64,000 bases of DNA, taken from assembly GCA_020427145.1 (NCBI GenBank), contig JAGQOU010000136.1, positions 1-64,000 of the forward strand, written 5' to 3'. The notes under the pieces were generated by a model. It saw only the letters and a list, made by a program, of their open reading frames with translations, did no database searches and was not told where the DNA came from. Each line of letters starts with the position of its first letter. Within the stretch, counting starts at the first letter, position 1. Positions 3 to 18,047 of the stretch are shown here, piece by piece. Origin of the DNA: Planctomycetales bacterium (GTDB lineage Bacteria; Planctomycetota; Planctomycetia; Pirellulales; Lacipirellulaceae). The translations under genes and the position numbers were made by a program.

Positions 3-692
3 AGGGTGGCTGGGGACGAGCGAAGCGAGCCCCCAGTGAATCGGCGAGCGCCCGAGGCTTCCGGTCCGCTGGGCCGTTGGGAAACCGACGAGACGACGCT
101 CGCGCTGCGTTACTTCCCGGCCGGTCACGCCGATGTGCTGCTGAAAGATTGGCTCGACGCCTTCGCCGCCGCCGCTACCGGCGCACACGCCAACGTCGCC
201 GACCCGCTGCTGCGCGATCTGGTCAAGCCGACCGCCCCCGGCCAATGCGGCATGTGCCACAGCCTGCAGCGCGAGCCCCGCGGCGAGTTGGCCATGCAAT
301 GGCTCGCGCGCACCAACGCCACATCTGCCGGGGCGCCTGGGGACGACCAACGGGAGCCCCCAGCGGCAGCGGACCCCAGCGTCGCTCCACTGGGGGCTCG
401 CTCCGCTCGTCCCCAGCCACCCAGCGCGAATCATGAACTGACTAGCGTCGCGCCACGGGTGGCACTCACGCACTTCGCCCACGGCCCGCACCTCACGCAA
501 CCGCAACTGGCCGATTGCGCCAGCTGCCACCGCATCGCCGCGGGCGCCGACGTGATGACCACCTACGCCCACGACCAGCCCGAGGCGTTTACCCCCGGCT
601 TCGAGTCGCTCCAAAAGTCCGAGTGCGCCGCCTGCCACCGCCCCCAAGCCGCCGGCGACAGCTGCACGCAATGCCATCGGTATCACCCCTGA
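3..692 (+). CDS. Multiheme cytochrome c, C-terminal part (5' end outside window)
   Basis: The reading frame is open from the window edge, so the true start lies upstream; the GTG at 6 sits inside a repeat and is an unlikely start. Four CXXCH haem-binding motifs are visible, at nucleotides 246-260, 516-530, 624-638 and 663-677, which marks a periplasmic or surface electron-transfer cytochrome. The protein ends just after the last motif. Two palindromic repeat units (4-38 and 336-421) are translated in frame as Pro/Gly/Arg-rich stretches such as GDDQREPP and LGARSARPQPP, and the second separates haem motifs 1 and 2. Electron donor and acceptor cannot be told from this fragment. It may be functionally related to the five-haem cytochrome at 6511-9429. 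Confidence 0.8.
   Translation, partial: RVAGDERSEPPVNRRAPEASGPLGRWETDETTLALRYFPAGHADVLLKDWLDAFAAAATGAHANVADPLLRDLVKPTAPGQCGMCHSLQREPRGELAMQWLARTNATSAGAPGDDQREPPAAADPSVAPLGARSARPQPPSANHELTSVAPRVALTHFAHGPHLTQPQLADCASCHRIAAGADVMTTYAHDQPEAFTPGFESLQKSECAACHRPQAAGDSCTQCHRYHP
4..38. repeat. Short palindromic repeat type R1, copy 1
   Basis: A unit of about 33 bp, GGTGGCTGGGGACGAG followed by CGAAGCGAGCCCCCAG. The ends CTGGGG and CCCCAG can pair. Related units lie at 336-421, 3153-3185 and 17838-17870. This copy is inside the coding frame of the partial cytochrome. Confidence 0.75.
336..421. repeat. R1 repeat, inverted pair inside a cytochrome gene
   Basis: A forward unit (336-363) and an inverted unit (388-421) face each other across about 24 bp, giving a potential long hairpin. 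The whole pair has a length and phase compatible with the cytochrome frame and adds no stop codon. The forward unit has the CGACCAACGGGAGC core seen in copies 3 and 4; the inverted unit has the CGAGCGGAGCGAGC-like core of copy 1. Confidence 0.75.
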
Positions 693-4496: not shown

Positions 4497-6422
4497 TCAA
4501 AACTTCTTCCGCAGTTCGACCCGTGCGCCGTTGATATCATTGGCGTTTTGCAGCCAGCCGTGCATGGCGTCCATGCGGATGAGCCAGGTGTTGTTCAGCG
4601 GGTGCTGGTAGCGCACGCCCACGGCGTACTGATCGCCGGGGGCAATGCGAGTCGGGTCGTTGCCGCGGGTTTGCACCGCGGCGCCTTCGACGATCAGTTG
4701 CTTGTTGAAACAGGCGCCCAGCAGGTCGACCCCCACCGCGGCGCCGTAGGTGTTGTTGCCCGAGTCGTCCAGCAGCGGGTACCCCGTGAGCAGGTCGCTC
4801 TCGAAGTTGATGCCCGTGTTCTTGAGCGGCCCCTGCAAGCGGCCCAGCGGCTGCGGCGAACCAAAGCCGACGAAGAGGTTCACGTACGGAATCACGTTGT
4901 AGGGATTGCGGGTCAGGAAGCTGTTTTCCATCAGCAGCAGCAGGCCGTCGGCGGTGCGGTCGTCGCGCGGGCCGCCCTGGCCGGTGTTGACGATCGCCCG
5001 GACCGAGTTGCTGACCAGGTTGAGGTACCGCCGCGTGTAGCTGACGCCCAGGTTGTGGTAGCTGCGGCCCTGGTTCTCGGGGTCGTCGACGTAAGCGTAT
5101 CCCAATTCAAAATATCCGCCGCGGCGTTCGATGAAAGTGGTCGCCCCGACGAACGTCGCTTCGCGCGAGTCGACGCCCAGCGCCTTGGACGTGAGCTGGT
5201 TGAAGCCGACGAACACGGTGGTGTCGAAGTTCGACCAGTCGAGCAGGGGGTTATTCCTCGCCGGGATGGTCGCTGCCACGCCGACGAAGGCGTCCTCTAG
5301 CCAGATGCCGTTCTGCAAGACGAGCGGAATCAGCCCCACGGCCACCGGCAGGTCAAACGGCGGGCTGGTGCCGGCAAGTCCGCCGAGAATCCAGCCGAGG
5401 TCGCCCTCGATGAACATCGTGTCGGTATTGGGGTCCCAGGCGTCGAAGAACTCCTGCACCTCGCTGTCGCCGTCGTCGAACACGATGCCCGAGAAGTTCT
5501 GCCCCTGGTCCAACGGCCCCCAGAACATGTGGAACCGCTCGGTGGCGGTGAGCCAGAAGTCGATGTCGAGGTTGAGCCGGTTGGCCCAAATGGTTTGGCC
5601 GTTGGCGACATTCTGGTTGTTTGCCACGGCGGTGCGGAAGTCGCCGTAGACGTAGAACTTGGGATGGGTGGGGTTCGTGGCGCCCAAGCAGCAGCCCGAG
5701 GGGGCCCAGGGGCCCGTGTCGTACAGGGGCGTGAAGCATTCGACCCACGGCCGCTGGTTGGGATTGAGGTGTTTGCAGCCGTAGATGCCCAACTCGCCGC
5801 ACGCGTCCCAATAGAAGGATCCCAACATCGGATCCGGCGAGAAGTCGCCAGAGCAGTACGGCCGCCCGGACGAACGGCAATCGAGTCGGTGCGGGTTGAC
5901 GCGCATGACGCCGCCGTCGAGTTCCGCGGGCGCGGGCATCTGATCCCAGCAGGGGGCGTGCATCGACACTTCGCCAGGCGCATACGGCGCCAGCGGACTG
6001 TAGCGCCCCAACGAACGCATAAACCCGGGGCCGGCGACGCCTGGGTGCGGACCCGGGGCGAGATTGCATGCCGGGCCGCAGTAGTTCCCCGCGTCGGTGC
6101 TCACCCCGCCCTGACGAGTCGGCGCCGGGGGCGGGGTGTTCGCGGCGGCGATGCGGAGCGGCCGTTGCCAGTCCGCCGGTGCGCCGCCGATCCCTCCCGG
6201 AGTCGCTCCCCAGGCGGGCGAAGGGGGACCGGTTGGCTGATTCGGTTGCGGCTGCGTTGCAACCGGAGGCAGAGCGAATAGCACGGGCTGCGAGCAAGCC
6301 TCGTTCGCCGTCGCAACCGAGGCCAACCACAGCGCGCACACAACAACCACGCCCAGCCAGCTGGTGGCGGGAGTGCGGTTGCGTTGTTCGCGTTGAGATC
6401 TCACCGTTGCCATTCGCGTCAA
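4497..6422 (-). CDS. Outer-membrane beta-barrel-like protein next to multiheme cytochrome
   Basis: 641 residues. An N-terminal signal segment (WLGVVVVCALWLASVATANE) is followed by a Pro/Gly-rich linker to about residue 110. A Cys-rich section then contains WDQMPAP, CRSSGRPYCSGDFSP and WDACGELGIYGCKHLNPNQ. From about residue 240 it is a long alternating-strand region with many aromatic residues, ending in RVELRKKF with a terminal Phe, as is typical of outer-membrane barrels. I do not recognise a named family. The gene follows the five-CXXCH cytochrome on the same strand after 88 bp, so the two are probably co-transcribed. A porin-cytochrome electron conduit or a surface sensor are possible roles, by inference only. 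Confidence 0.7.
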   Translation of the reverse strand: MTRMATVRSQREQRNRTPATSWLGVVVVCALWLASVATANEACSQPVLFALPPVATQPQPNQPTGPPSPAWGATPGGIGGAPADWQRPLRIAAANTPPPAPTRQGGVSTDAGNYCGPACNLAPGPHPGVAGPGFMRSLGRYSPLAPYAPGEVSMHAPCWDQMPAPAELDGGVMRVNPHRLDCRSSGRPYCSGDFSPDPMLGSFYWDACGELGIYGCKHLNPNQRPWVECFTPLYDTGPWAPSGCCLGATNPTHPKFYVYGDFRTAVANNQNVANGQTIWANRLNLDIDFWLTATERFHMFWGPLDQGQNFSGIVFDDGDSEVQEFFDAWDPNTDTMFIEGDLGWILGGLAGTSPPFDLPVAVGLIPLVLQNGIWLEDAFVGVAATIPARNNPLLDWSNFDTTVFVGFNQLTSKALGVDSREATFVGATTFIERRGGYFELGYAYVDDPENQGRSYHNLGVSYTRRYLNLVSNSVRAIVNTGQGGPRDDRTADGLLLLMENSFLTRNPYNVIPYVNLFVGFGSPQPLGRLQGPLKNTGINFESDLLTGYPLLDDSGNNTYGAAVGVDLLGACFNKQLIVEGAAVQTRGNDPTRIAPGDQYAVGVRYQHPLNNTWLIRMDAMHGWLQNANDINGARVELRKKF

Positions 6423-6434
6423 TTCGTAAGTGTG

Positions 6435-6502
6435 CCACTGCTGGCTTGACCAGCAGTGGGCGCCATGCCCCGCTTCGCACTGCTGGGATTGTCCAGCAGC
6501 GG
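6435..6502. repeat. Two-hairpin intergenic repeat between cytochrome and barrel genes
   Basis: The first hairpin is perfect: CCACTGCTGG (6435-6444) and CCAGCAGTGG (6450-6459), with loop CTTGA. The second, weaker hairpin uses the same CTGCTGG/CCAGCAG words at 6480-6500. It fills most of the 88-bp gap between two co-oriented genes and could moderate transcription or stabilise mRNA. Confidence 0.7.
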
Positions 6503-6510
6503 CACGCGTC

Positions 6511-9429
6511 TCACCGCACGATGAACTCCACGCTTGATTGATGGAAATCCAAGATCCCTTCGTTCATCGCCCGCATCATTTCCGGCGTCGAGCCGCAGAA
6601 CCGCATGAAGTACAGCGGTTCCAGCCGATTGCGCATGCGGAAGGTCAGTCGATAGCGGCCCGGTTCGCAGAGCAATTCGGCCGGCACCCGGTACGGCACG
6701 CGGCGCGAGCCCAACGGCGCCAGCGAGCGGGCTTCCATGCGGATGAACGGCGGGTGATTGATCACCGTAATCGGCTGCGCCCCCGGGCGGATGAACGGCA
6801 GCTGGTCGATGTCGATATTCACCGGCAGGAAGAACTCGCGGTCCGTCCCCTTGGCACCGGTGATGAGGAACATCGTCTGCAGGTTGAACAGCTGCGAGTC
6901 GAACTTCAGCCGCTTGTTGCGCACGTCAACGCTGTGGATGTCGGCCAGATCGCCCAGCGTGTCGAGGTAGCCGGTTTCCCACAGCCGATTGCCGCGGGGC
7001 CCGATCAGCGCCACATTGGCCCACACTTGCGGTTGGGCGCCCAGCGACGCGGTCGGCAGGTTGTGGCCCTCGTTGGTGTTGACCACCACGTACTCAAACT
7101 CCAGCGGCTGGCCGCGCTCGGGCGCGTACTTGAAGAACGGCCCGTCGACGTGCGAGCCGTTTTCCATGACCGCGGCGCGGAGCCGGTCTTTATGGCCGCG
7201 CTTCTTGAGATTGTCGTCGAGGATTTCGCGCGCGTCGGCGCGGTCGTCTGCTTCCTTCCACACCTCGGGGAACGCGACCTGGATGCGACCCTCGTCGACG
7301 GCTTCCTCAAACTCGTCCGTCCCCCAGCCGGCGCGCCAGTCGAACAGCAGCCAGTCGCGCACCGTCCAGCGATACGCCTTGGGATTCTGCGGGAAGATGC
7401 CGGGGTGCGCGATCGAGTACCCCGGGCCGTAGAACACGTGGTTCGAGTGCCGGCGGTTGTCGTTGACTTTCTTTTTGTTGACCACCGCGGCGGGGCCGAT
7501 TTCGAACCCGCTGGGCACGCCGGGGATGCGGCCCATGTGGCAATCCTGGCAGCGAATGCCCTTCCGGCACGCCGGGCTGGCGCGGTACTGCTCCCACACC
7601 ACCTCGAGCTTGATGCCCGGGTAGACCGCCACCTGGTGGCAGGTGATGCAGAAGTCGCTCTTGCCAAGTTGCGGGTTGTAGAAGCCCGCGCGGTGCATGG
7701 CCTGGCCTGGACCCTTTTCGTCGGGCGACGTTTTCAGTTTGAAGTTGTCCTTCTGCTGAATCGCCTGAGCGACGCCGTCGCCGCCGATCGAACCGTACAC
7801 CGGATCGTAGATGTCGCCGGGTACGATGCGGCGCTCGCCGTTGGTGCGGCCGTAGAATTCGTTCACGCGATGGCAGGCGACGCACGTGACGCCCTCGCGC
7901 GCCACCTGCGGCAAGTCCCACAGCGGCGCGGCGCGCGAGATGCCCAACTCGGTCCCCGCGGGCGAATGGCAGCGGTAACAGAAGTAGCCGATTGTGCCCT
8001 GCGCGACGTCGTTGATTTTCTGCTCGAATTTGTGGAACATCGGCGAGACCATCGCGTAGGCGTGGCTCGACATGCTCCACTCGTCGTAAATCTGTTCGTG
8101 ACAGGTGCGGCACTCGGTGGCCGCGGGGTAGCGGCTCTGGGCGACGAACTCGCAGCGCTCCAGCGGCGTTTGCGGCTGGTCGGCTTTGGCGGCGGCGGCT
8201 GACTGCCCCGCGCCCCCCTGGGGGCCGGGCGGCGGGCGACGCAGCGGCGGGTGCGGGTTGGAGACTCCCGTGGGCGGAGGGGCGAACGGCGACGGGCCAG
8301 GGGCGCCGTTGTTTGGCGGCGTCGTCGGGCGCGCGGTCGGCGGCGTGGCGGTCCCCGGGGGGAGTGCTTCGGGCGTCGTCGGCACACGAGGCCTGGCGGG
8401 CGGCGGCACGAGCAGGTCGTCGCGGTCGTCCAGCAGAGAGTCGTCCTCACTGTCCAACAGCGAGTCGTCGTCGCGCGCCGCTGGCGGAGCCGTCATGTCT
8501 TCGCCTGCGTCGAGGAGAGAGTCGTCCTCATCGTCTAACAGCGAGTCGTTGCCATGGGCCGCTGGCGGGGCGGCGAGGTCTTCGCTCTCTTCCAGAAGGA
8601 AGTCGTCGCCTACGTCGTCCGTGCCGTTCGCGGCAATCGGGGCTGGCGGCGACCCCATCGAAGGCGCGAGAAGATCCTCCCCGTCATCCACCAGCGCGTC
8701 GTCGTCGACCGGTTCCTCGACCGCAAGATCCTCCTGCGGCGGCGTCGGGGAAGGCGAATCGGTCGCCGCGGCGGGCGTGTCGTTGAAGTTCAGTTGCGGA
8801 CTGCCGGCGTCGGGCTGATCCGGTTCACCCTGGGGCGCTGCGAGCAAATCATCCACGCCGCCCAACAGATCGTCGGGGTCGTTGCTCGGCATGGCGCGCG
8901 GGGTTGGCGTCGGCAGCGACGCGATGCGCAGCGGCACAGGATAGCGAACCACAGGCACGTCAGCGGAAGCCTGAGCGTTGGCGACGAGCCGCACGCGCGG
9001 CCGTTCGTCGACTGGCGGCAACAGCGTGACGTGATTGTCGCTGGGGTTCGGCTCAAGCCACTCGGGATGATTGGCCACGGCGATCCACCCCGGACAGCCG
9101 CCCTCGGCCAGTATCGACTGCACCTCGGCCGAGACCTGCTGCGAGGGCGCCCGATTTTGCTGCGTGTCATACGCCGCATGCGTCGCCGGGGACGCCGCGG
9201 GGAGCGTCGCGTCCTGCTTGGCTGTGCGCGGCGCTTCGCCTTCGCTGACGCCCTGCCAATACAGTACGCCGGCGCACAGCATGGCCAAGGCCGCGGCGCG
9301 CAGCAGGAGTTGGTCGAAAGATTGCTCGTGACGGAGACGCAAGCGGAGCATCCTTGCTCGGCCGGCGACGGGAGTCGCGCCGGCAATGCTAGCGGAGTTG
9401 GCGGGGTCTAGCCCTTCGTCACCTGTCAT
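6511..9429 (-). CDS. Five-haem c-type cytochrome with acidic linker
   Basis: 972 residues from the ATG at 9429. A hydrophobic segment (LLLRAAALAMLCAGVLYW) near residue 45 anchors or exports the protein. Residues about 190-350 are a low-complexity acidic linker with DDSLLDDEDDSLLD-type repeats, then a Pro-rich stretch to about 430. The haem domain has CXXCH at residues 440, 484, 516, 594 and 627 (CRTCH, CYRCH, CVACH, CITCH, CQDCH), followed by a beta-rich C-terminal domain of about 300 residues. The spacing recalls cytochrome c-554-like multihaem proteins, but the family is not certain. The open frame extends upstream to 9645 without a better start; ATG 9351 is a possible alternative. It is probably an operon with the barrel protein downstream. 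Confidence 0.85.
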   Translation of the reverse strand: MTGDEGLDPANSASIAGATPVAGRARMLRLRLRHEQSFDQLLLRAAALAMLCAGVLYWQGVSEGEAPRTAKQDATLPAASPATHAAYDTQQNRAPSQQVSAEVQSILAEGGCPGWIAVANHPEWLEPNPSDNHVTLLPPVDERPRVRLVANAQASADVPVVRYPVPLRIASLPTPTPRAMPSNDPDDLLGGVDDLLAAPQGEPDQPDAGSPQLNFNDTPAAATDSPSPTPPQEDLAVEEPVDDDALVDDGEDLLAPSMGSPPAPIAANGTDDVGDDFLLEESEDLAAPPAAHGNDSLLDDEDDSLLDAGEDMTAPPAARDDDSLLDSEDDSLLDDRDDLLVPPPARPRVPTTPEALPPGTATPPTARPTTPPNNGAPGPSPFAPPPTGVSNPHPPLRRPPPGPQGGAGQSAAAAKADQPQTPLERCEFVAQSRYPAATECRTCHEQIYDEWSMSSHAYAMVSPMFHKFEQKINDVAQGTIGYFCYRCHSPAGTELGISRAAPLWDLPQVAREGVTCVACHRVNEFYGRTNGERRIVPGDIYDPVYGSIGGDGVAQAIQQKDNFKLKTSPDEKGPGQAMHRAGFYNPQLGKSDFCITCHQVAVYPGIKLEVVWEQYRASPACRKGIRCQDCHMGRIPGVPSGFEIGPAAVVNKKKVNDNRRHSNHVFYGPGYSIAHPGIFPQNPKAYRWTVRDWLLFDWRAGWGTDEFEEAVDEGRIQVAFPEVWKEADDRADAREILDDNLKKRGHKDRLRAAVMENGSHVDGPFFKYAPERGQPLEFEYVVVNTNEGHNLPTASLGAQPQVWANVALIGPRGNRLWETGYLDTLGDLADIHSVDVRNKRLKFDSQLFNLQTMFLITGAKGTDREFFLPVNIDIDQLPFIRPGAQPITVINHPPFIRMEARSLAPLGSRRVPYRVPAELLCEPGRYRLTFRMRNRLEPLYFMRFCGSTPEMMRAMNEGILDFHQSSVEFIVR

Positions 9430-9654: not shown

Positions 9655-11163
9655 ATGCGAGCGTGGCTGCTAGCACCAGCGGCGATGGCGGCCGTTGCGC
9701 TGCACCCCGCCGCGCCGGTCGTTGGGCAAACGACGGTCGATCTGACGCCCTTTCTCGGCTACGGCATGGAGGTGGCCGCCGAGATCGACGCCACGCTCGG
9801 CGTCTCTGGCACGGCGCTCTACGCCGAGGGGGCGAACCTCAGCGGCAACCAGTTCGGCGGCTCCGGCGGGCGGGCGTTCGTTTGGCCGCTCAGCGCGCAG
9901 TTTCGCGTGCTCAATTCTCTCGCTCAGTACGACCCCGTGACGTACGAGCCGAAGCTGCGCGAATTCTCCGACCAGTTGCACGCCGGCTATTGGAACAGCT
10001 CGCTGCGCGGCTACAGCTGCTGTCTGGGGGGCAGCGATCGCTACTACGACGACAACGCCCACCTGGCCGTGGCGCTGGCCGAAGCCTATGAGATTACCGG
10101 CGACTCGACGTATCTCTACCGGGCGCGGCTCACGTATCAGTTTCTCATCCAAGGCGAAGCGCCGGGCTACCCCGGCGGCAGCTACTGGCAAGTGGGCAAC
10201 GAAACGTTCTTGGACTCCGCCGCCGCGCTGCAGGGCGCCCGCGCAGGGGCGATGTTGTACAAGGCGACGGGCTTTCAGGTTTATCTCGACAACGCCCTGC
10301 AGCGCTACGCGTGGGCCGCGTCGACGACCCAGTTGGCCGACGGCACCTTCATGGAGAAGCTGTTCTTGACCGGCGACCAGGCGGGCGAAATCGGCAACTA
10401 TCCGCTCGTCAACTTCACCGCCATGGGCATCGAAGCCAACCTGCAGTTCTACGACGTCACGGGCGACCCGCAGTACCTGACCGAGGCGCAGCGAATCGGT
10501 CGCACCGCGGCCAACAAGTACTTCAGCTCCAGCACGGGCGCCATCAACGACGAGGGGTACTGGGCCTACGAATTGGTCGACGCATTTATCGATCTTTACG
10601 AGCGCGATGGCCGCGGGCTCTGGCTGGGCCGCATCGAGAATGGCCTGAACTGGCTGCACGACAACAAAGAGGATCCCGAGGGACACTACGGCAGAATGTG
10701 GGGACGCGATCCCCCACCCGAGGAGACTTGGATCGACGGAACGCTGCAGTCCTGGTATCTCAACGACCAGGCGTCCGTGGCCCGCGCTTATCTGTATGCG
10801 GCGCTCCTGCAGACCGAGCCGATCTCGGGTCAAAACGGAGCGGACTTCAACGACGACGGCGTGGTCAACGGCGGAGATTTTCTCGTCTGGCAGCGCGGGC
10901 TGGGAAAAATTGCCCAGACCGACGGCGCCCACGGCGACGCCAACGGCGATGGGACCGTCGACCGCCGCGATCTGGCCATTTGGCAGTCGGCGTACGCAAC
11001 GACCGCGTCCGCAACCTCGGGCACAACGCCCGTGCCGGAACCTGCGGCGGCGACGCTGGTGGCGTTGGCGATGGCGTCGTTCGCGAACCGCGTCAGTCGA
11101 TCCGCGCGCCGTCGTCGTCGGCATGAAAGAGATGCCAGCTTCCCGACCGCAATCGAGGAATGA
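9655..11163 (+). CDS. Secreted GH76-like glycoside hydrolase with dockerin-like and PEP-CTERM modules
   Basis: 502 residues. The signal peptide is MRAWLLAPAAMAAVALHPAA. Residues about 60-385 resemble the alpha/alpha-toroid GH76 family (alpha-1,6-mannanase-like), with the paired acidic motif YYDDNAHLAVALAEAYE, a QVGNETFLDSAAAL helix and RMWGRDPPPEETWIDG. Two Ca-binding dockerin-like repeats follow (ADFNDDGVVNGGDFLVWQRG and GDANGDGTVDRRDLAIWQ). The C-terminus is a PEP-CTERM signal: VPEP, a hydrophobic helix, then an Arg cluster. An AAGG lies a few bases before the ATG. The gene diverges from the cytochrome gene, and its 3' end overlaps the end of the convergent ABC ATPase gene by 71 bp. Substrate is inferred from family only. 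Confidence 0.85.
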   Translation: MRAWLLAPAAMAAVALHPAAPVVGQTTVDLTPFLGYGMEVAAEIDATLGVSGTALYAEGANLSGNQFGGSGGRAFVWPLSAQFRVLNSLAQYDPVTYEPKLREFSDQLHAGYWNSSLRGYSCCLGGSDRYYDDNAHLAVALAEAYEITGDSTYLYRARLTYQFLIQGEAPGYPGGSYWQVGNETFLDSAAALQGARAGAMLYKATGFQVYLDNALQRYAWAASTTQLADGTFMEKLFLTGDQAGEIGNYPLVNFTAMGIEANLQFYDVTGDPQYLTEAQRIGRTAANKYFSSSTGAINDEGYWAYELVDAFIDLYERDGRGLWLGRIENGLNWLHDNKEDPEGHYGRMWGRDPPPEETWIDGTLQSWYLNDQASVARAYLYAALLQTEPISGQNGADFNDDGVVNGGDFLVWQRGLGKIAQTDGAHGDANGDGTVDRRDLAIWQSAYATTASATSGTTPVPEPAAATLVALAMASFANRVSRSARRRRRHERDASFPTAIEE

Positions 11164-12151
11164 CGCGGTCGCCGGGGCGGTGGGGTTGGTCTGCTGCCAG
11201 ACGCATCGACAGCTGATGGCCCGCAAGCTCGAAGTAGGCCATCGATTCGTGACCCATCTGCTCGACCGCGTCGAGGGTCGCCTCGGGGAGCGACGGTCCG
11301 TCGCCGCCGAGCGCGAGGTCTTCGGCTCGCATCCCCAGGACCACGGGTCCGGCCGCGCGGCGATCGTCCAGTGCAATCTGCCCGCCAGCGAACTGGAACG
11401 TGCCGTCGACGAGTTCGCCGGCGAGGAGGTTCATCGGCGGGCTGCCGATAAAACCGGCAACGAAGCGGTTCGCCGGGCGGCGGTACAGCTGCAGCGGGGC
11501 GTCGGCCTGCTGCACGACGCCGTGGTTCATGATGACGATCCGCTCGCCGAGGGTCATCGCTTCGACCTGGTCGTGCGTGACGTAAATCATGGTCGTCTTC
11601 AGCCGCCGGTGCAGCGACGCGATCTCGGCCCGCATCTGCACGCGCAGCTTCGCGTCGAGATTCGACAGCGGCTCGTCGAACAGAAAGACCTGCGGGTCGC
11701 GCACAATCGCACGGCCCAGCGCCACGCGCTGCCGCTGGCCGCCGGACATTTCGCGGGGGCGTTTGTCCAGCAAGGACGTGATACCCAGCGTCTCGGCCAC
11801 GGCGGTCACGCGCTGCTGGATCTCGGCCTTGGGGGTGCGGCGCATTTTCAAACCAAAGCCCAAGTTCTGTCGCACCGACATGTGGGGATACAGGGCGTAG
11901 TTCTGAAACACCATGGCGATGTCGCGTTGCCCAGGCTCGACGTCGTTGACGCGACGATCGCCGATCAACACGTCGCCGCCGGAGATTTCCTCGAGCCCGG
12001 CCAGCATTCGCAGCGTGGTGCTCTTGCCGCAGCCCGAGGGCCCCACCAGCACGACGAACTCGCCGTCGCCGATCTCCAGATTGAGATCATGCACGGCGTG
12101 GTACCCGTCGGGGTAGATCTTGTCGATGTGTCGAAAGGCGACAGTTGCCAT
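11093..12151 (-). CDS. malK: Sugar ABC transporter ATP-binding protein (MalK/UgpC type)
   Basis: 352 residues. The ATPase domain has Walker A GPSGCGKST at residues 37-45, signature MSGGQRQRVALGRA, Walker B VFLFDEPLSNLD and the switch region YVTHDQVEAMTLG. The C-terminal portion (residues 235-350) is the TOBE/OB-fold regulatory domain typical of MalK/UgpC/MsmX ATPases (VLGMRAEDLALGG). It energises import by the adjacent MalG and the binding-protein/MalF fusion. It is the last gene of the leftward alpha-glucan run. The symbol is given for the family; the true sugar could differ. Its 3' end overlaps the converging GH76-like gene. Confidence 0.93.
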   Translation of the reverse strand: MATVAFRHIDKIYPDGYHAVHDLNLEIGDGEFVVLVGPSGCGKSTTLRMLAGLEEISGGDVLIGDRRVNDVEPGQRDIAMVFQNYALYPHMSVRQNLGFGLKMRRTPKAEIQQRVTAVAETLGITSLLDKRPREMSGGQRQRVALGRAIVRDPQVFLFDEPLSNLDAKLRVQMRAEIASLHRRLKTTMIYVTHDQVEAMTLGERIVIMNHGVVQQADAPLQLYRRPANRFVAGFIGSPPMNLLAGELVDGTFQFAGGQIALDDRRAAGPVVLGMRAEDLALGGDGPSLPEATLDAVEQMGHESMAYFELAGHQLSMRLAADQPHRPGDRVIPRLRSGSWHLFHADDDGARID

Positions 12152-12208
12152 AGATGCAAAGGGGAAAGGGGTAGGGCGGAATGGGGGCGAACAACGCGGC
12201 CGATAGCC

Positions 12209-12226
12209 GCGAGCTTACTAGCTCGC
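12209..12226. repeat. Short hairpin in the malG-malK gap
   Basis: GCGAGC (12209-12214), loop TTACTA, GCTCGC (12221-12226), set in a GCCGATAGCCGCGAGCTTAC context of the kind often repeated in planctomycete spacers. There is no T-run, so it is probably not a terminator. Confidence 0.5.
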
Positions 12227-12287
12227 CGGCGAGTTTGCTAACCCGCGCTTGTCAAATCTCCGTCACCGACGCCGGAAAGCTCGAACA

Positions 12288-13139
12288 TCACTCCTTCACC
12301 GATCCCAATGTCAGTCCACTCACCAGGTATTTACTCAACAGCACAAACACTACGACCACCGGCACGCTCACCAGCAGCGACGCGGCGGCGTACAGGCCCC
12401 ACTGGGTCGACATGCTGGCCTGAAAGCTCTTCAGTCCCAAGGGGAGCGTGAACATGTCCTTGTCCTGCAGAATCTGTGCGGCCACGAGGTACTCGCTCCA
12501 CGCGCTCATGAAGCTGAACAGCGCCGTGATCACCAGTCCCGGCACGGCCAGCGGCAGAATCACCTTGGTGAACGCCTGCCAGCGGGAGCAGCCGTCGATG
12601 CGGGCCGCTTCCTCCAGCGAAGCGGGGATCGTGTCGTAGAACCCCTTCATCTGCCACACGCAGAAGGGCAGGGCGGTGGAGGCGTAAAACACGCACAGGC
12701 CCGCGTAGGTGTCGATGAGCCCCAGCCGCGCGATCATCAGATACAACGGCAGCAGCAACATCGTGGCGGGGAACATCTGCGTGACCAGGATCGAGGTCAT
12801 CATCGCCCCGCGTCCCACGAACCGGAAGCGACTGAACGCGTACCCGCCGATCGCCGCCAGCGCCACGCCGGTGAGCGTGACCGCGGTGGAGACCAGCAGG
12901 CTGTTGAGCAGCCAGCGGACGAACGCCGGCAGCGCGTCGTCGGGCGACTCGCGCGTGAACAGTTGCACGTACGAGTCGAGCGTCCAGTCGTCGGGGACCA
13001 ATTGCCATTTGGAAGTGCGCAGCTGATCCCCGGGGCGCAATGAAATGGAGACGACGTCCAACACCGGCCACAGCGCAATGGCCACAAACACGAGCAGAAT
13101 CGCGTGCCGGGCGAGCGTGATATGGCGGGGTTCGTTCAT
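12288..13139 (-). CDS. malG: Carbohydrate ABC transporter permease (MalG type)
   Basis: 283 residues with six predicted membrane segments, beginning with HAILLVFVAIALWPVLDVVS. The EAA loop EEAARIDGCSRWQAFTKVIL, which contacts the ATPase, sits near residue 180. The C-terminus (YLVSGLTLGSVKE) is the typical ending of MalG-type sugar permeases. It pairs with the MalF domain encoded at 13459-15753 and the ATPase at 11093-12151. The gene is separated from the upstream fusion gene by a 319-bp spacer filled by nested inverted repeats, which is unusual inside a transporter operon. Confidence 0.93.
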   Translation of the reverse strand: MNEPRHITLARHAILLVFVAIALWPVLDVVSISLRPGDQLRTSKWQLVPDDWTLDSYVQLFTRESPDDALPAFVRWLLNSLLVSTAVTLTGVALAAIGGYAFSRFRFVGRGAMMTSILVTQMFPATMLLLPLYLMIARLGLIDTYAGLCVFYASTALPFCVWQMKGFYDTIPASLEEAARIDGCSRWQAFTKVILPLAVPGLVITALFSFMSAWSEYLVAAQILQDKDMFTLPLGLKSFQASMSTQWGLYAAASLLVSVPVVVVFVLLSKYLVSGLTLGSVKE

Positions 13140-13164
13140 GGTCGAGTCAATTCATGCCACAGGT

Positions 13165-13441
13165 TGGACAGGATCACAGGATTTGCAGGATGAACAGGAT
13201 GGACGACCGATCGCGGGATCGCAGAGTTCATCAAGTCAACCACGGATGATACGGATTTCACGGACAAGAAACTTCTTCTTGCAAATCGCTATTCAATTCA
13301 GTTGTTTGCTTTCAGGATGCGAGCGATTGAGTGACCGACAATCCGAGCAATCCGTGTTATCCGTGGTAAAAACGAGTTAGAGTCGAGAACTGCCAACCGA
13401 CAATCATCCTGTTCATCCTGCGAATCCTGTCATCCTGTCAA
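13165..13441. repeat. Nested inverted repeat element (R3 outer arms, second repeat inner arms)
   Basis: The outer arms 13165-13203 and 13403-13441 are reverse complements at about 35 of 39 positions (TGGACAGGATCACAGG... against ...CATCCTGTCAA). Inside them a second pair, 13239-13264 (ACCACGGATGATACGGATTT...) and 13341-13367 (...TGTTATCCGTGGT), is also inverted. The element fills the gap between the MalF-fusion and malG genes. The outer arms belong to the same family as 4341-4446. No open frame of note lies inside, so it resembles a MITE-like or REP-like element. Confidence 0.85.
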
Positions 13442-13458
13442 AATCTCCAAGTTGGTCT

Positions 13459-15753
13459 TCAATATGCGGCCTCGGTCGCCCGAGTGCGATTGAGGAACAG
13501 CGCGCTGAACGCCAGCAGCATCAGGAAGATCACCATCGACAGCGCGGCGCCGTAGCCGTACTTGTACAGGTTGAACACGGCTTTGTAGACGTAGGAGACC
13601 AGGATGTGCGTTTTGTCGGCCGGTTCGCCGCCGTTGGAGACCAGCCACACGACGTTCAGGTTGTTGAACGTCCAGACGGCTCCCAGCGTGATCGCCGGCA
13701 GCAGCACGGGCTTTAGCAGCGGCAGCGTGATGTTGCGGAACTGTTGCCAACGACTCGCCCGATCGATGCGGGCCGCCTCGTACAGCTCGGTCGGGATGCC
13801 CTGCAGGCCGCCCAGGGCGATGACCATCATGAAGGGGAATCCCAGCCAGATGTTGGCCACCAGACACGCGACGAACGCCGGGCCCGCTTCGCCGAGCCAG
13901 TTGACCCGTGCCAAGCCGACGCCGGCGAGGAGGTGGTTCACGGCGCCGAACTCGAAATCGAACATCCCTCGCCAGGTGAGGGCCGTGATGTACGCCGGCA
14001 CCGCCCAGGGGATGATCAGCAAGAGCCGGTAAATGCTCTTGCCGCGGATCGGGCCGTTGAGCATGACTGCCAGCAGCACGCCGAGCGTGACGTGGAAGAC
14101 GACGTTGACCACCGTCCACACGATCGTCAGCCCCAACACGTTCCAAAACTTGCTCGCCTGCTCGCCGGTGAACATGGCGCCGTAGTTCGCCACGCCGATC
14201 ACCTGCCAATCGCGCAGATTGGTCAGCGACATGTTGGTGAACGACAAGACCACGTTGTACGCCAGCGGAAACAGCACGGTGAGCAGGATCACCGCCAGAG
14301 ACGGCAGCACAAACAGATAAGCCAAACGGTTGGTGCGCAGGTCGCGCCACAGGTCCGCCACGGCGCGGCGCTGCCAGTACAGCCCGGCGGCAAGCAAAAC
14401 CAGCCCAGCCAGCGACACCAGCGGCGCGGTCGCGTCGGGCTGCGACACGGTGGTGAGCGCCGCGCATTGTCGCAACGCCTCGGCCTGCATGGCCGCGGCG
14501 GCCGCCGCGGGCTCGAGCTTGCCGGCCATCAGTTCCTGGTAGGCGGGCCGCATCGAATCCCACACGGCGCGGATTTCGATGGCGGTCGGCATCGGGCGGC
14601 CGCGTTCGACCTGGGCGATCGAGGCCGTCAGCAGCGGGTCGTCCGACTCGGCCGCCTTCTCGCGCAACGCCAGCCGCGATGGCAGCACCTTCTGATCCGC
14701 GAGGAACGCGGCCTGCGTTTCCTCGCTGGTGAGAAACTCGATCAGCGCCGCGCCGTCGTCGGCCTCTTGCCCGGATGTGAACGAGGTGAGGCTGTAGCCC
14801 TTGGGGGCGACCATCGGCGCCATCGGCAAGCCGGTGGCCGATACGGTCGGCAGCGGCGCTACGGCCGCATCGATGCGGTCGCTGGCGACGTAACCCTGCC
14901 AGCTCCAATCGCCGTCGATCAGCATCGCCGCCTTGCCGCTGCGGAACAACTCGGCGGCCGCTTCGTAATCCGCGCTACGCGGCAACACGCGGTACTTCGA
15001 CCGCAGGTCGCTCACGAATTGGTAGGCCGCTACCGCCGCGGGCGTGTCGAGCGCGGGAATCCCGTGCACGGCCGAGTCGTCGCCGCTGCTCTCTTCAAAC
15101 ACCCACGCCCCGTATCCGGTGAGAAACGGGACCACGAAGAACGGCTCGGTGTAGTTCCACACCAGCCCGTACCGCTTCGGCGAGCCGTCTTTGTCGGCGT
15201 CGATCGTGTTCTGCTGGGCGAGTTCCACCAACTCGTCCGTCGTGGTCGGCGGCCGCGTGATGTATTGCCGGTTGTAGACGAGCCCCAGGTGGTTGCCGAA
15301 GCGATCGCCCACGAACACCAGTCGCGGCGGATCGCCGGGATCGGCGGCCGGCATATAGATCAACGAACGCGGGTCGAATTGGGCTTGCTCGGATGCGTTG
15401 AACCACGGCGACAGGTCGGCCAGCGCTCCCATGGCGTGGTACACTCCCAGCACGTCCGACGGGCCGTACACCACCTCCGGCCCCGATTGCGCAAGCACCG
15501 CGGCGACCAACCCGCTGCGCAACTCTTCCGTTTCCTTGTAGAGCGCCCGCACGTGCAGATCGGGGCGCTGGCGCTCGAACTCGGCAATCCGCGCGTCGAG
15601 CACGGCGCGATCTTCAGGGCGCATCTGATGCCACAGTCGCACCTCGCGGCGGGCGTCCGCTGGCCCGCACCCGGCGCACAACGCGGCGAACAGCAAGAGC
15701 AGGAGTCGAGCGCCCCGGCGAGTTCGGACGGACTGCAGAGCGAGAATCGTCAT
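13459..15753 (-). CDS. Sugar-binding lipoprotein fused to MalF-type permease
   Basis: 764 residues. The N-terminus is a lipoprotein signal (LLLLLFAALCAGC, Cys29). Residues about 35-425 form an extracellular solute-binding protein of the maltose family (VRLWHQMRPEDRAVLD, GPEVVYGPSDVLGVYH, MLIDGDWSWQG, SGQEADDGAALIEFL). An extra membrane helix (LVSLAGLVLLAAGLYW) follows, then a complete MalF-like permease from about residue 470 with the EAA loop EAARIDRASRWQQF near 658. Binding protein and channel are thus one polypeptide. The ATG overlaps the TGA of the GH13 gene upstream by 4 bp (ATGA), indicating translational coupling. It works with MalG and MalK to import malto-oligosaccharides, inferred from the neighbouring GH13 enzymes. 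Confidence 0.9.
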   Translation of the reverse strand: MTILALQSVRTRRGARLLLLLFAALCAGCGPADARREVRLWHQMRPEDRAVLDARIAEFERQRPDLHVRALYKETEELRSGLVAAVLAQSGPEVVYGPSDVLGVYHAMGALADLSPWFNASEQAQFDPRSLIYMPAADPGDPPRLVFVGDRFGNHLGLVYNRQYITRPPTTTDELVELAQQNTIDADKDGSPKRYGLVWNYTEPFFVVPFLTGYGAWVFEESSGDDSAVHGIPALDTPAAVAAYQFVSDLRSKYRVLPRSADYEAAAELFRSGKAAMLIDGDWSWQGYVASDRIDAAVAPLPTVSATGLPMAPMVAPKGYSLTSFTSGQEADDGAALIEFLTSEETQAAFLADQKVLPSRLALREKAAESDDPLLTASIAQVERGRPMPTAIEIRAVWDSMRPAYQELMAGKLEPAAAAAAMQAEALRQCAALTTVSQPDATAPLVSLAGLVLLAAGLYWQRRAVADLWRDLRTNRLAYLFVLPSLAVILLTVLFPLAYNVVLSFTNMSLTNLRDWQVIGVANYGAMFTGEQASKFWNVLGLTIVWTVVNVVFHVTLGVLLAVMLNGPIRGKSIYRLLLIIPWAVPAYITALTWRGMFDFEFGAVNHLLAGVGLARVNWLGEAGPAFVACLVANIWLGFPFMMVIALGGLQGIPTELYEAARIDRASRWQQFRNITLPLLKPVLLPAITLGAVWTFNNLNVVWLVSNGGEPADKTHILVSYVYKAVFNLYKYGYGAALSMVIFLMLLAFSALFLNRTRATEAAY

Positions 15754-17750
15754 GGCGTCGCGGTGAGAGTCTCGCTGTCGCTGATCAAGAGCACGCCGGA
15801 GCGCGGGGCGATCGTCACCGTTTGCGCTCCATCGGGCATTTGGACGGCATCCGGCGACGTGCCGACGACCAACCGCCACGACGCGCCGGGCGCCGCTGGC
15901 AGCGTCCAGGCGTATGGCTGGTCGCCCCGATTCAGCGCGACCAACGCGTGCTGCCCTTCGCCGTGCCGAAAAAAGCTGAAGAACTTGGCTTTGTCGTCCA
16001 CTTCGGCCACCTCGAACGAGCCGTGCCGCAGCACGGGCAGTTCGCGGCGGGCCTGGATCGCGGCCTGGTAGAAGTCGAACAGCTCGCGGTCGAACGCCAC
16101 GGGATCGGCGGAGCGCTCGCGTCCCAGGGGATCGCTCGCCTCGTCGTCGTACGTCAGGTCGGGCCACACCATTGGCTTGCGGTCGCACGGATCGTCGCCG
16201 CCCCACATGCCGGCTTCGTCGCCGTAGTACACCATCGGCGGGCCCACATACGTCATTTGCATGAGCACGACCAAACGCTGCAGCGCCCGCTCCTCGGCAT
16301 TGGGAGCCCGCACGGCGTAGTCGTCGTGGTAGCGGGGCGTGACCGCTTCGTCGAAGTCGAATCGATCCGCCCGCTTGTACGGCTCGTCCTGTGGGCGATT
16401 GACGATCATCGACGCGAGTCGGTCGGTGTCGTGCGAGTCCATCAGGTTTTGCAACGCGAACTGCTGGGCCGGCGGATACTCGCTGCGGCGCAATTGCAGT
16501 TCGCGGCCAAAGTCGTGCGGCGTGAGTCGTCCGTCGATCAGATAGCCTTTCACCGGAAATGAGAAGGCGTAGTAGTTCATCGTGGCCGAGAACCCGCACG
16601 ACGTCAGGAAATCGCGGGCGTCGTCCCACACCTCGGCCACCGTGTAGGCTGCGGGGTTGATTCCCCGAACCACCGCGTGCCAGTCCTGCCAAAACTTCGG
16701 CGGCACCTCGTTCGCCACGTCGAGCCGCCAGCCATCGATGCCATCGGCCGGGTCGCCGTCGCCGTTGGGATCCATCCAACGGCGGGTCACGTCCAGGATG
16801 TACGCCTTGGGGCCCGGGTGCAGGTCCGAGCCGCCCTCGGCGTCGGCGAATTCCGGCAAGGTGTCCACGCCCCACCAGCCCTTGTAGCGGAACTCGTTGT
16901 GGGGCGTTGCCGGGTCGTCGAAGTGTTGCACGATGTACCAGTCGCGGTACGGCGAATCCTGCTGCTGGTCGCGCAGGTTGGCAAAGGCGAAGAAGTCGCG
17001 ACCGGTGTGGTTGAACACGCCGTCGATGATTACCCGCATGCCGCGCTCGTGGGCGGCGGCGAGTAGCTCCAGAAACAGCTTGTCGGCGGCCGTCCACTGC
17101 CACGTGGCGGGATCGCTGGTTTCGGAGGCGATCAACTCCAAGTCGCCCGCCGGATCGGGGCCAAAGTAGGGCTCGATGTGATGCATCGACGCGGCGTCGT
17201 ACTTGTGCAGGCTGCGGGCGTAGAACAGGGGGTTGAAGTACAGCGCGTTGACGCCCAAGGTTTGCAGGTAATCGAGCTGGTCGATCACGCCCTGCAGGTC
17301 GCCGCCGTAGCGACGGTTGAACACCCCATTGTCGAAGTAGCTGGGGCCGGCCGCGGCCTCCCAGTCGGCGCGGGCGTACCAGTCGCCCGTCCAGGGACTG
17401 ATCGCCCACGTCTCGGGAACCAACTCGGGAAACTCCAGCGACCCATGCGTGGGGTCGTTCGCCGGGTCGCCGTTGCTAAACCGCTCGGGAAAGATTTGGT
17501 AGAACACCGCGTCAGCGGCCCACGCTGGCACGTTGGGCAGCGGTTCGGCGTCGGACCAAGCGACCGATGTGAACTGGTTGTCCACCGGAACTGCGGGATC
17601 AGCCGGCGTTCGCTCAGCCGCCTGGCCGGCTGTCGTCGGGTCGAGCGCCGCGGAGGGGATGCCGGCCTGCTCGCAACCGCCGGCCGCGACGACGCTCAGC
17701 AGTCCCCAGGCGAGGGCGCGGCTGATCAGATTGGTGCGAGGATCGATCAT
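15750..17750 (-). CDS. GH13 alpha-amylase/neopullulanase-type lipoprotein
   Basis: 666 residues. The start is the ATG at 17750, preceded by AAAGGA; the longer frame upstream only translates an R1 repeat. The signal ISRALAWGLLSVVAAGGC suggests a lipoprotein with Cys26. A GH13 barrel follows: YQIFPERFSNGDPANDP, LQTLGVNALYFNPLF, RVIIDGVFNHTGRDF, catalytic nucleophile Asp in GWRLDVANE (about residue 341), acid Glu in VAEVWDDAR (about 373) and MDSHDTDR (about 438). A C-terminal beta domain ends in a GVLLISD-type strand. It cleaves alpha-glucans at the cell surface, and the products are probably taken up by the translationally coupled transporter downstream. Confidence 0.92.
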   Translation of the reverse strand: MIDPRTNLISRALAWGLLSVVAAGGCEQAGIPSAALDPTTAGQAAERTPADPAVPVDNQFTSVAWSDAEPLPNVPAWAADAVFYQIFPERFSNGDPANDPTHGSLEFPELVPETWAISPWTGDWYARADWEAAAGPSYFDNGVFNRRYGGDLQGVIDQLDYLQTLGVNALYFNPLFYARSLHKYDAASMHHIEPYFGPDPAGDLELIASETSDPATWQWTAADKLFLELLAAAHERGMRVIIDGVFNHTGRDFFAFANLRDQQQDSPYRDWYIVQHFDDPATPHNEFRYKGWWGVDTLPEFADAEGGSDLHPGPKAYILDVTRRWMDPNGDGDPADGIDGWRLDVANEVPPKFWQDWHAVVRGINPAAYTVAEVWDDARDFLTSCGFSATMNYYAFSFPVKGYLIDGRLTPHDFGRELQLRRSEYPPAQQFALQNLMDSHDTDRLASMIVNRPQDEPYKRADRFDFDEAVTPRYHDDYAVRAPNAEERALQRLVVLMQMTYVGPPMVYYGDEAGMWGGDDPCDRKPMVWPDLTYDDEASDPLGRERSADPVAFDRELFDFYQAAIQARRELPVLRHGSFEVAEVDDKAKFFSFFRHGEGQHALVALNRGDQPYAWTLPAAPGASWRLVVGTSPDAVQMPDGAQTVTIAPRSGVLLISDSETLTATP

Positions 17751-17837
17751 TCCTTTGTTCCGTGAATTCGCTGCTGGCGCGACGCCGCGCGGCGACAAGT
17801 GGGTCGTGGAGATTGGCGATTGCCTGGGCAGTGCGCG

Positions 17838-17870
17838 GGGTGGCTGGAGACGACCAACGGGAGCCCCCAG
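17838..17870. repeat. R1 repeat, copy 4
   Basis: GGGTGGCTGGAGACGACC plus AACGGGAGCCCCCAG, one base different from copy 3. It lies in the 297-bp spacer upstream of the GH13 lipoprotein gene; nothing else was recognised in that spacer. Confidence 0.75.
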
Positions 17871-18047
17871 TGGCGTCGGACCGAGTTGTATCGCGATTGG
17901 GAGACGCCGCTGCGCTAAGTCTTCCCACGTCTCGTGCTGTCGTGCCGAAGTCAAACGGGGCGACCGCCGCTGCCCCCAGCGTGCGCGGCCGCCCCGTCAC
18001 CAGTACGGGCCGTCGTGAACAAATCGACGACCTGCGAAGTTTGTCGC

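Follow-up and report, generated by a model that had tools for sequence, protein, structure and literature searches.

Gene layout at the contig start

The window, meaning the whole stretch of 64,000 nucleotides that was analysed (Planctomycetales bacterium, contig JAGQOU010000136.1, positions 1 to 64,000), begins at a contig end and carries close to it, on the reverse strand, a gene for a five-haem cytochrome c followed by a gene for an outer-membrane beta-barrel. The features of this locus are as follows, PCC4 denoting a published putative porin-cytochrome cluster described below.

6511..9429, reverse strand: five-haem cytochrome c gene, 972 aa, ATG at 9429
8179..9264, reverse strand: greater part of the acidic, low-complexity linker, in which [DEN][DS]LL motifs recur
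6514..8178, reverse strand: folded cytochrome part (aa 418-972), five-haem domain and C-terminal beta domain
6423..6510, no strand: 88-nt spacer with palindromic hairpin (6436-6458)
4497..6422, reverse strand: outer-membrane beta-barrel gene, 641 aa, TTG start
5670..5849, reverse strand: conserved 60-residue segment (aa 192-251) preceding the first long barrel strand
4500..5669, reverse strand: predicted OprD/Occ-like barrel (aa 252-641), read as 18 strands
3..692, forward strand: C-terminal part of a ten-haem cytochrome assigned to PCC4, four CxxCH, truncated by the contig start

The cytochrome ORF (6511-9429) contains exactly five CxxCH motifs (CRTCH, CYRCH, CVACH, CITCH and CQDCH), matches PF13435 in Pfam, and is built from an N-terminal hydrophobic segment, a Pro/Asp-rich linker, the five-haem domain and a haem-free C-terminal Ig-like domain, with about 384 aa, the linker region, ahead of the first haem. 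The barrel ORF (4497-6422) holds no CxxCH motif, has no Pfam and no NCBIfam match at E <=1, and ends in Phe, a C-terminal residue common in outer-membrane barrels. Between the two genes lie 88 nt, or 97 nt if the barrel starts at the ATG three codons further. A preliminary description of this DNA had proposed a five-haem cytochrome with a co-oriented neighbouring barrel gene across an 88-nt hairpin-bearing spacer, and the ORFs, motifs and fold all bear this out.

The spacer hairpin is stable (-48 kcal/mol, z = -5.0), none of 200 shuffles being equally so, and the 23-nt palindrome with perfect arms at 6436-6458 is found at three sites in the genome at the pattern searched, the spacer included. 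The other two copies form a close pair at G000 C479:23489-23589. The palindrome half-site is present in none of the spacers of the 22 relatives' regions described below, and a terminator scan returned no site within the spacer. On these grounds the hairpin was rejected as a conserved part or a terminator, and it looks incidental to the pair.

Conservation of the pair

A search of 59 genomes, that of the window included, covered 36 from the window's family (Lacipirellulaceae), of which 24 hold a strong cytochrome match (E below 1e-250). The barrel adjoins the cytochrome in all 24, in one genome (G025) as two pieces at a contig end. Some weak cytochrome matches, in G010, in G039 and on contig 19 of G028, have no barrel match. 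Furthermore, a scan of genome contigs gave at least 584 pattern matches, 503 of these confirmed, from which the best 80 were kept by score and not at random. Conservation of the pair had been named beforehand as a check, and among these best 80 of at least 503 confirmed loci the barrel follows immediately downstream, in the same orientation, in 76, the contig ending after 670, 283, 1 and 216 bases in the remaining four; chance pairing was rejected on this basis. Sixty of the 80 loci are planctomycete-labelled or unspecified and 20 are proteobacterial- or verrucomicrobial-labelled, all 20 of these being metagenome bins whose individual assignments may be wrong. By their labels, cultured carriers of the pair include Lacipirellula, Adhaeretor, Botrimarina and Rhodopirellula.

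Assignment to the PCC4 cluster

PCC4 was proposed in 2017 by He et al. (PMC5566968) as a putative porin-cytochrome cluster in which genes for a porin and for three kinds of periplasmic cytochrome (4, 5 and 10 haems) are accompanied by those for an inner-membrane protein and further redox proteins. The inner-membrane protein is described there as having two WX3HX13H motifs, an SGXXG motif, and five transmembrane helices whose motifs are ferric-reductase-like, and in Subgroup II a PF13247 Fe-S gene lies upstream of its gene (PMC5566968). The same source reports carriers among Alpha-, Gamma- and Zetaproteobacteria and Planctomycetes, and proposes the cluster as an electron conduit in which electrons are drawn as moving opposite to export (PMC5566968). 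Our comparison drew on sections of PMC5566968, PMC11976967, PMC13264449, PMC5615132, PMC10732223, PMC5877670, PMC4245776 and PMC7198977; no functional test of any PCC4 gene was found in the sections considered of the PCC4 literature, and no literature joining extracellular electron transfer, porin and Pirellulales was found. Porin-cytochrome complexes are named in a survey of Planctomycetota and KSB1 bins (PMC10732223), and one of our loci, L073 (isolate OFTM39), shares its name with a bin in that survey.

Clustering of the genes that neighbour the pair over the 80 loci placed a ten-haem family in 18 of them, one of its members having 8 motifs. Two separate four-haem families occur in 15 and in 9 loci, and several redox families are also present. 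Pfam searches on L072 and others identified an Fe-S protein with cyclic-nucleotide-binding domains and PF13247, a reductase with NAD-binding and 2Fe-2S domains, and a c554-type four-haem cytochrome, with no Pfam match for the inner-membrane protein; PF13247 is present in the Fe-S protein of the window's own genome and in those of L072 and L138. In L138, which is proteobacterial-labelled, the Fe-S/cyclic-nucleotide-binding protein is fused to a pyridine-nucleotide oxidoreductase domain (Pfam), and the likewise labelled L142 and L146 carry what appears, by clustering and length only, to be the same fusion.

Regions of 15-20 kb were then taken for 22 of the other 23 pair-bearing genomes of the family, G025 ending at the pair. 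In 18 of the 22, genes for the ten-haem, inner-membrane, Fe-S and four-haem proteins lie close to the pair, accompanied by the reductase gene in 17, and in those 18 the ten-haem gene is on the strand opposite to the barrel; the four-haem gene of these relatives encodes 4 haem motifs. The other four regions (L155, L160, L162 and L170) have no other PCC4 genes near the pair, and the inner-membrane gene lies elsewhere in the genome. Two WX3HX13H motifs are present in 17 of 17 clustered inner-membrane proteins of relatives and in the window genome's own copy, and SGXXG is in place in 15 of the 17 and again in that copy. A simple hydropathy scan of the L072 protein gives 4 hydrophobic segments, against the five helices of the published PCC4 protein. 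The Fe-S gene lies upstream of the inner-membrane gene wherever a region contains the two (18 of 18), the gap in L157 being about 3.4 kb. At L142 and L146 the neighbours of the pair include a ten-haem gene and an inner-membrane gene of greater divergence. By eye, the ten-haem protein (L072:14544-16664, L181:3-1718) also has a Cys-rich stretch before a hydrophobic helix, possibly a metal-binding domain.

In the window's own genome the PCC4 genes are spread over three contigs, with haem counts of 5 and 6+4. The forward ORF at 3-692 encodes the last four haems of the ten-haem cytochrome, and contig C332, which shares a 25-nt identical end overlap with the window contig, holds the other six CxxCH (the N-terminal part) together with the inner-membrane protein and the Fe-S gene. 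Contig C80 carries the reductase and four-haem genes close to its end. An end overlap between C80 and C332 was looked for and none was found, and the join of these two contigs is presumed from the gene order of relatives. Further into the window (11093-17954) are ORFs whose translations, read by eye, resemble a maltodextrin-type ABC transporter with an alpha-amylase-like protein.

The pair almost certainly belongs to PCC4, an assignment made through the published description of that cluster and not through its sequences. The likeness comprises the porin, the cytochromes with 4, 5 and 10 haems, the inner-membrane protein with WX3HX13H and SGXXG, and the upstream PF13247 gene. There are also differences, in that within the window's family the pair is convergent to the other genes and sometimes unlinked from them, the planctomycete cytochrome has a long linker, the barrel is predicted to be OprD-like, and diverged pairs exist without the inner-membrane protein. 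The preliminary description had seen in the two genes the minimal layout of an electron conduit. The pairing of cytochrome and barrel stands, but the pair is not a minimal two-gene conduit; it forms part of the larger gene set of the putative PCC4, whose other genes lie near it in 18 of the 22 relatives' regions and, in its own genome, at the window start and on two further contigs.

Co-occurrence with the inner-membrane protein

Within the Lacipirellulaceae the inner-membrane protein is found in 23 of the 24 pair-bearing genomes versus 0 of the 12 without the pair (Fisher p = 1e-8, kinship among genomes ignored), the single pair-bearing genome with no match being 58% complete. The link is not one of mere neighbourhood, since four genomes (G011, G013, G023 and G026) have the inner-membrane gene either at a distance of at least about 19 kb from the pair or on a different contig. 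An internal stop interrupts the copy in G013. Outside the family, G048 and G057 have weak inner-membrane matches and no pair. For half of the 80 loci the source genomes were searched as well, 40 in all, at least three of which are already in the family set, as identical coordinates show; the inner-membrane match is strong (E below 1e-30) in 32, weak in 3 and absent from 5. The pair and the inner-membrane protein thus occur together within the family, and beyond it not exclusively. The pair as an always stand-alone unit was rejected, given this co-occurrence and the PCC4 genes nearby in 18 of 22 regions.

Six further loci (L171-L176, from G043 twice, G056, G049, G040 and G032) have diverged 5- or 6-haem cytochromes beside diverged barrels, with 21-27% identity for the five measured. 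None of the six regions has a match to the PCC4 inner-membrane protein, and for five of the six pairs (those in G040, G043, G049 and G056) there is no such match genome-wide.

Fold of the cytochrome and its linker

The folded part of the cytochrome was modelled from 51 sequences (pLDDT 81.9, pTM 0.84, confidence being weak at 178-192 and 439-466). The model aligns to the penta-haem c552 of Thermochromatium tepidum (5ze8) with Z 18.3 over 349 residues, the next row scoring 9.9, and 5ze8 is also the sole strong match of a profile search (E 5e-18, haem part). Foldseek gave no cytochrome among the 50 matches listed, and a second aligner run on Foldseek's own candidates placed 5ze8 first. The two proteins are alike in having five haems and a C-terminal beta domain (349 residues aligned, versus a chain of 385), but their identity is 19%, and the cytochrome described here has a barrel neighbour and, in planctomycetes, a long N-terminal linker. 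Besides the five motif His, eight non-motif His are conserved at 90% or above.

The stretch from the hydrophobic segment to the first haem has a median length of 229 aa among the 61 sequences that are planctomycete-labelled or unspecified, that of the window included, and of 32 aa among the 20 proteobacterial- or verrucomicrobial-labelled ones; within this set row L125 is mis-segmented and contig ends truncate some of the frames. The long planctomycete linker may tether the cytochrome across a wide periplasm. The motif [DEN][DS]LL, picked after viewing the sequences, occurs 8 times in the window's linker versus 0.07 expected from shuffles, and 62 times over 81 proteins versus a shuffle expectation of about 2.4, L072, L130, L132, L140 and L069 being further examples; 12 planctomycete-labelled proteins have at least two copies and 0 of the 20 others has any.

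A barrel that serves the secretion or surface display of the cytochrome could also make use of a long linker such as that of planctomycetes, and c552 has reportedly been suggested to be related to AvECN, an archaeal extracellular cytochrome filament. The linker is, however, short in the 20 proteobacterial- or verrucomicrobial-labelled loci, and the barrel has no consistent family match, secretion or other, so that we regard this role as highly improbable.

Fold of the barrel

The barrel model (aa 192-641, 54 sequences) has a mean pLDDT of 87.9 and a pTM of 0.81, and upholds the barrel-like protein of the preliminary description; with the pair also conserved, neither of the two refuting outcomes named there occurred. 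It contains 21 DSSP strand elements, which we take to be one short strand ahead of the barrel and 18 transmembrane strands, of which two are broken. The best structural match is to OprD/Occ channels (Z 27.5, 2.9 A, 320 residues aligned), with MOMP and AlgE as further matches and overall Z of 23-27.5 over about 315-345 residues. OprD, AlgE and MOMP have 18 strands each. The likeness to Pseudomonas OprD/Occ, and to AlgE and MOMP, is one of predicted fold, whereas identity is 7-12% in the listed rows, there is no Pfam match, and the barrel described here has an extra 60 conserved N-terminal residues and a cytochrome partner. Most OprD/Occ alignments begin within a few residues of the end of this segment (aa 192-251), a candidate docking or plug element. 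Strand positions charged in at least 80% of sequences number 27, of which 25 are on the lumen side (11 positive, 14 negative), the lumen being taken as the more polar side, which makes the parity rule partly circular, with three strands barely differing between sides. By the standard formula, which uses strand number and shear, the C-alpha radius would be about 16.5-17 A for 18 strands versus about 24 A for 26, the shear being assumed and the value not taken from model coordinates.

The Pfam and NCBIfam libraries contain an MtrB/PioB model. At E <=0.1, none of the Pfam or NCBIfam models is shared by two or more of the 54 barrel members; among the same members Pfam gives no match to the OprD sequence family at that threshold and one weak match to the generic OMP_b-brl (0.035), and a PDB sequence search with the barrel profile returned nothing meaningful. 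Where a barrel family is missing from the structure-match lists, this was not taken as evidence. The preliminary description had recognised no match to MtrB/PioB, and the family searches agree, in that homology to MtrB/PioB is not supported among the 54 members, with room left for a remote kinship.

MtrAB and PioAB likewise pair a barrel gene with a multihaem cytochrome gene, and MtrB is described as a 26-strand sheath enclosing the decahaem MtrA. Here, in contrast to a decahaem wire in 26 strands, a barrel read as 18-stranded stands beside five haems and an Ig-like domain. An arrangement of the MtrAB/PioAB type, with the cytochrome or part of it inside the barrel and electrons passing directly across the outer membrane, would fit the tight conservation of the pair, and PCC4 was indeed proposed as such a conduit (PMC5566968). 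We nevertheless consider it unlikely, because the folded five-haem and Ig-like module of 555 residues would hardly be accommodated within an 18-strand barrel of the smaller radius. Furthermore, CxxCH is absent from the window barrel and from 100 ORFs of its cluster, among which are some fragments and shadow frames, and even Cyc2, the fused cytochrome-porin that offers a precedent, is described with a single conserved haem motif, from which the haem-free barrel protein here differs. The electron-conduit layout suggested at the outset therefore holds as a barrel with a multihaem partner, but hardly as a wire within a barrel, and the predicted fold leads us to favour, with some confidence, a barrel that acts as a channel rather than a sheath.

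A model for the pair in trans-envelope redox chemistry

We propose that the pair is, on balance, the outer module of a PCC4-type electron-transfer chain that spans the envelope. The carriers of this chain would be cytoplasmic NAD(P)H or quinone, the Fe-S protein, a pair of presumed b-haems in the inner-membrane protein, the ten-haem cytochrome (with the four-haem one) and the five-haem cytochrome, with electrons passing between them. Less certainly, the five-haem cytochrome would be periplasmic, held on a long tether in planctomycetes, and docked at or near the barrel, which, also less certainly, would be a selective channel bringing a small redox substrate, a shuttle or a metal ion to the docked cytochrome. 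A role in trans-envelope redox chemistry as such is probable. As to the direction of the electrons, the reductase gene, together with ferric-reductase-like motifs in the helices of the inner-membrane protein, makes export from NAD(P)H plausible, and the reductase slightly favours it.

A more specific form of the favoured channel reading, overlapping with it, would have the barrel import a small acceptor, such as an oxyanion, for reduction by the five-haem cytochrome in the periplasm, a role resembling that discussed for ExtI/ExtKL in selenite reduction by Geobacter. The ext cluster is described as comprising a porin (ExtI), 4-, 5-, 10- and 12-haem cytochromes, a b-type cytochrome and a Rieske protein, so that its parts list, with the penta-haem ExtKL in the same fold group, is similar. 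The OprD/Occ-like channel fold of our model would suit this specificity, and penta-haem cytochromes of cable bacteria, grouped with ExtKL and similar to T. tepidum c552, have been described as potentially catalytic. The inner-membrane partners differ, however, the window barrel has no NCBIfam match, and the ExtKL model of NCBIfam covers 30 residues of the cytochrome around a haem motif at 30.6 bits versus a cut-off of 250. The eight conserved non-motif His could, moreover, fill every axial position, which leaves an open catalytic haem putative, and we hold such a dedicated reductase pair to be possible though rather doubtful.

Returning to the favoured channel reading, we tentatively extend it to the class as a whole. 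Barrels of the PCC4 type may be selective channels with a tethered five-haem cytochrome, which carries out periplasmic redox chemistry on imported solutes, and the pair may be an older, portable unit that has been joined to different inner-membrane electron sources, an idea that stems from the diverged 5- or 6-haem pairs found without the PCC4 inner-membrane protein. What is new here is the structural reinterpretation of the barrel, the PCC4 set itself having been put forward in 2017 from the arrangement of its genes. For the PCC4 class the barrel model casts doubt, on structural grounds, on a wire inside a barrel. If the channel reading is true, estimates of extracellular electron transfer that count porin-cytochrome gene pairs in metagenomes would be inflated. 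The pair occurs in cultured planctomycetes, Lacipirellula, Adhaeretor, Botrimarina and Rhodopirellula among them, which makes the question testable.
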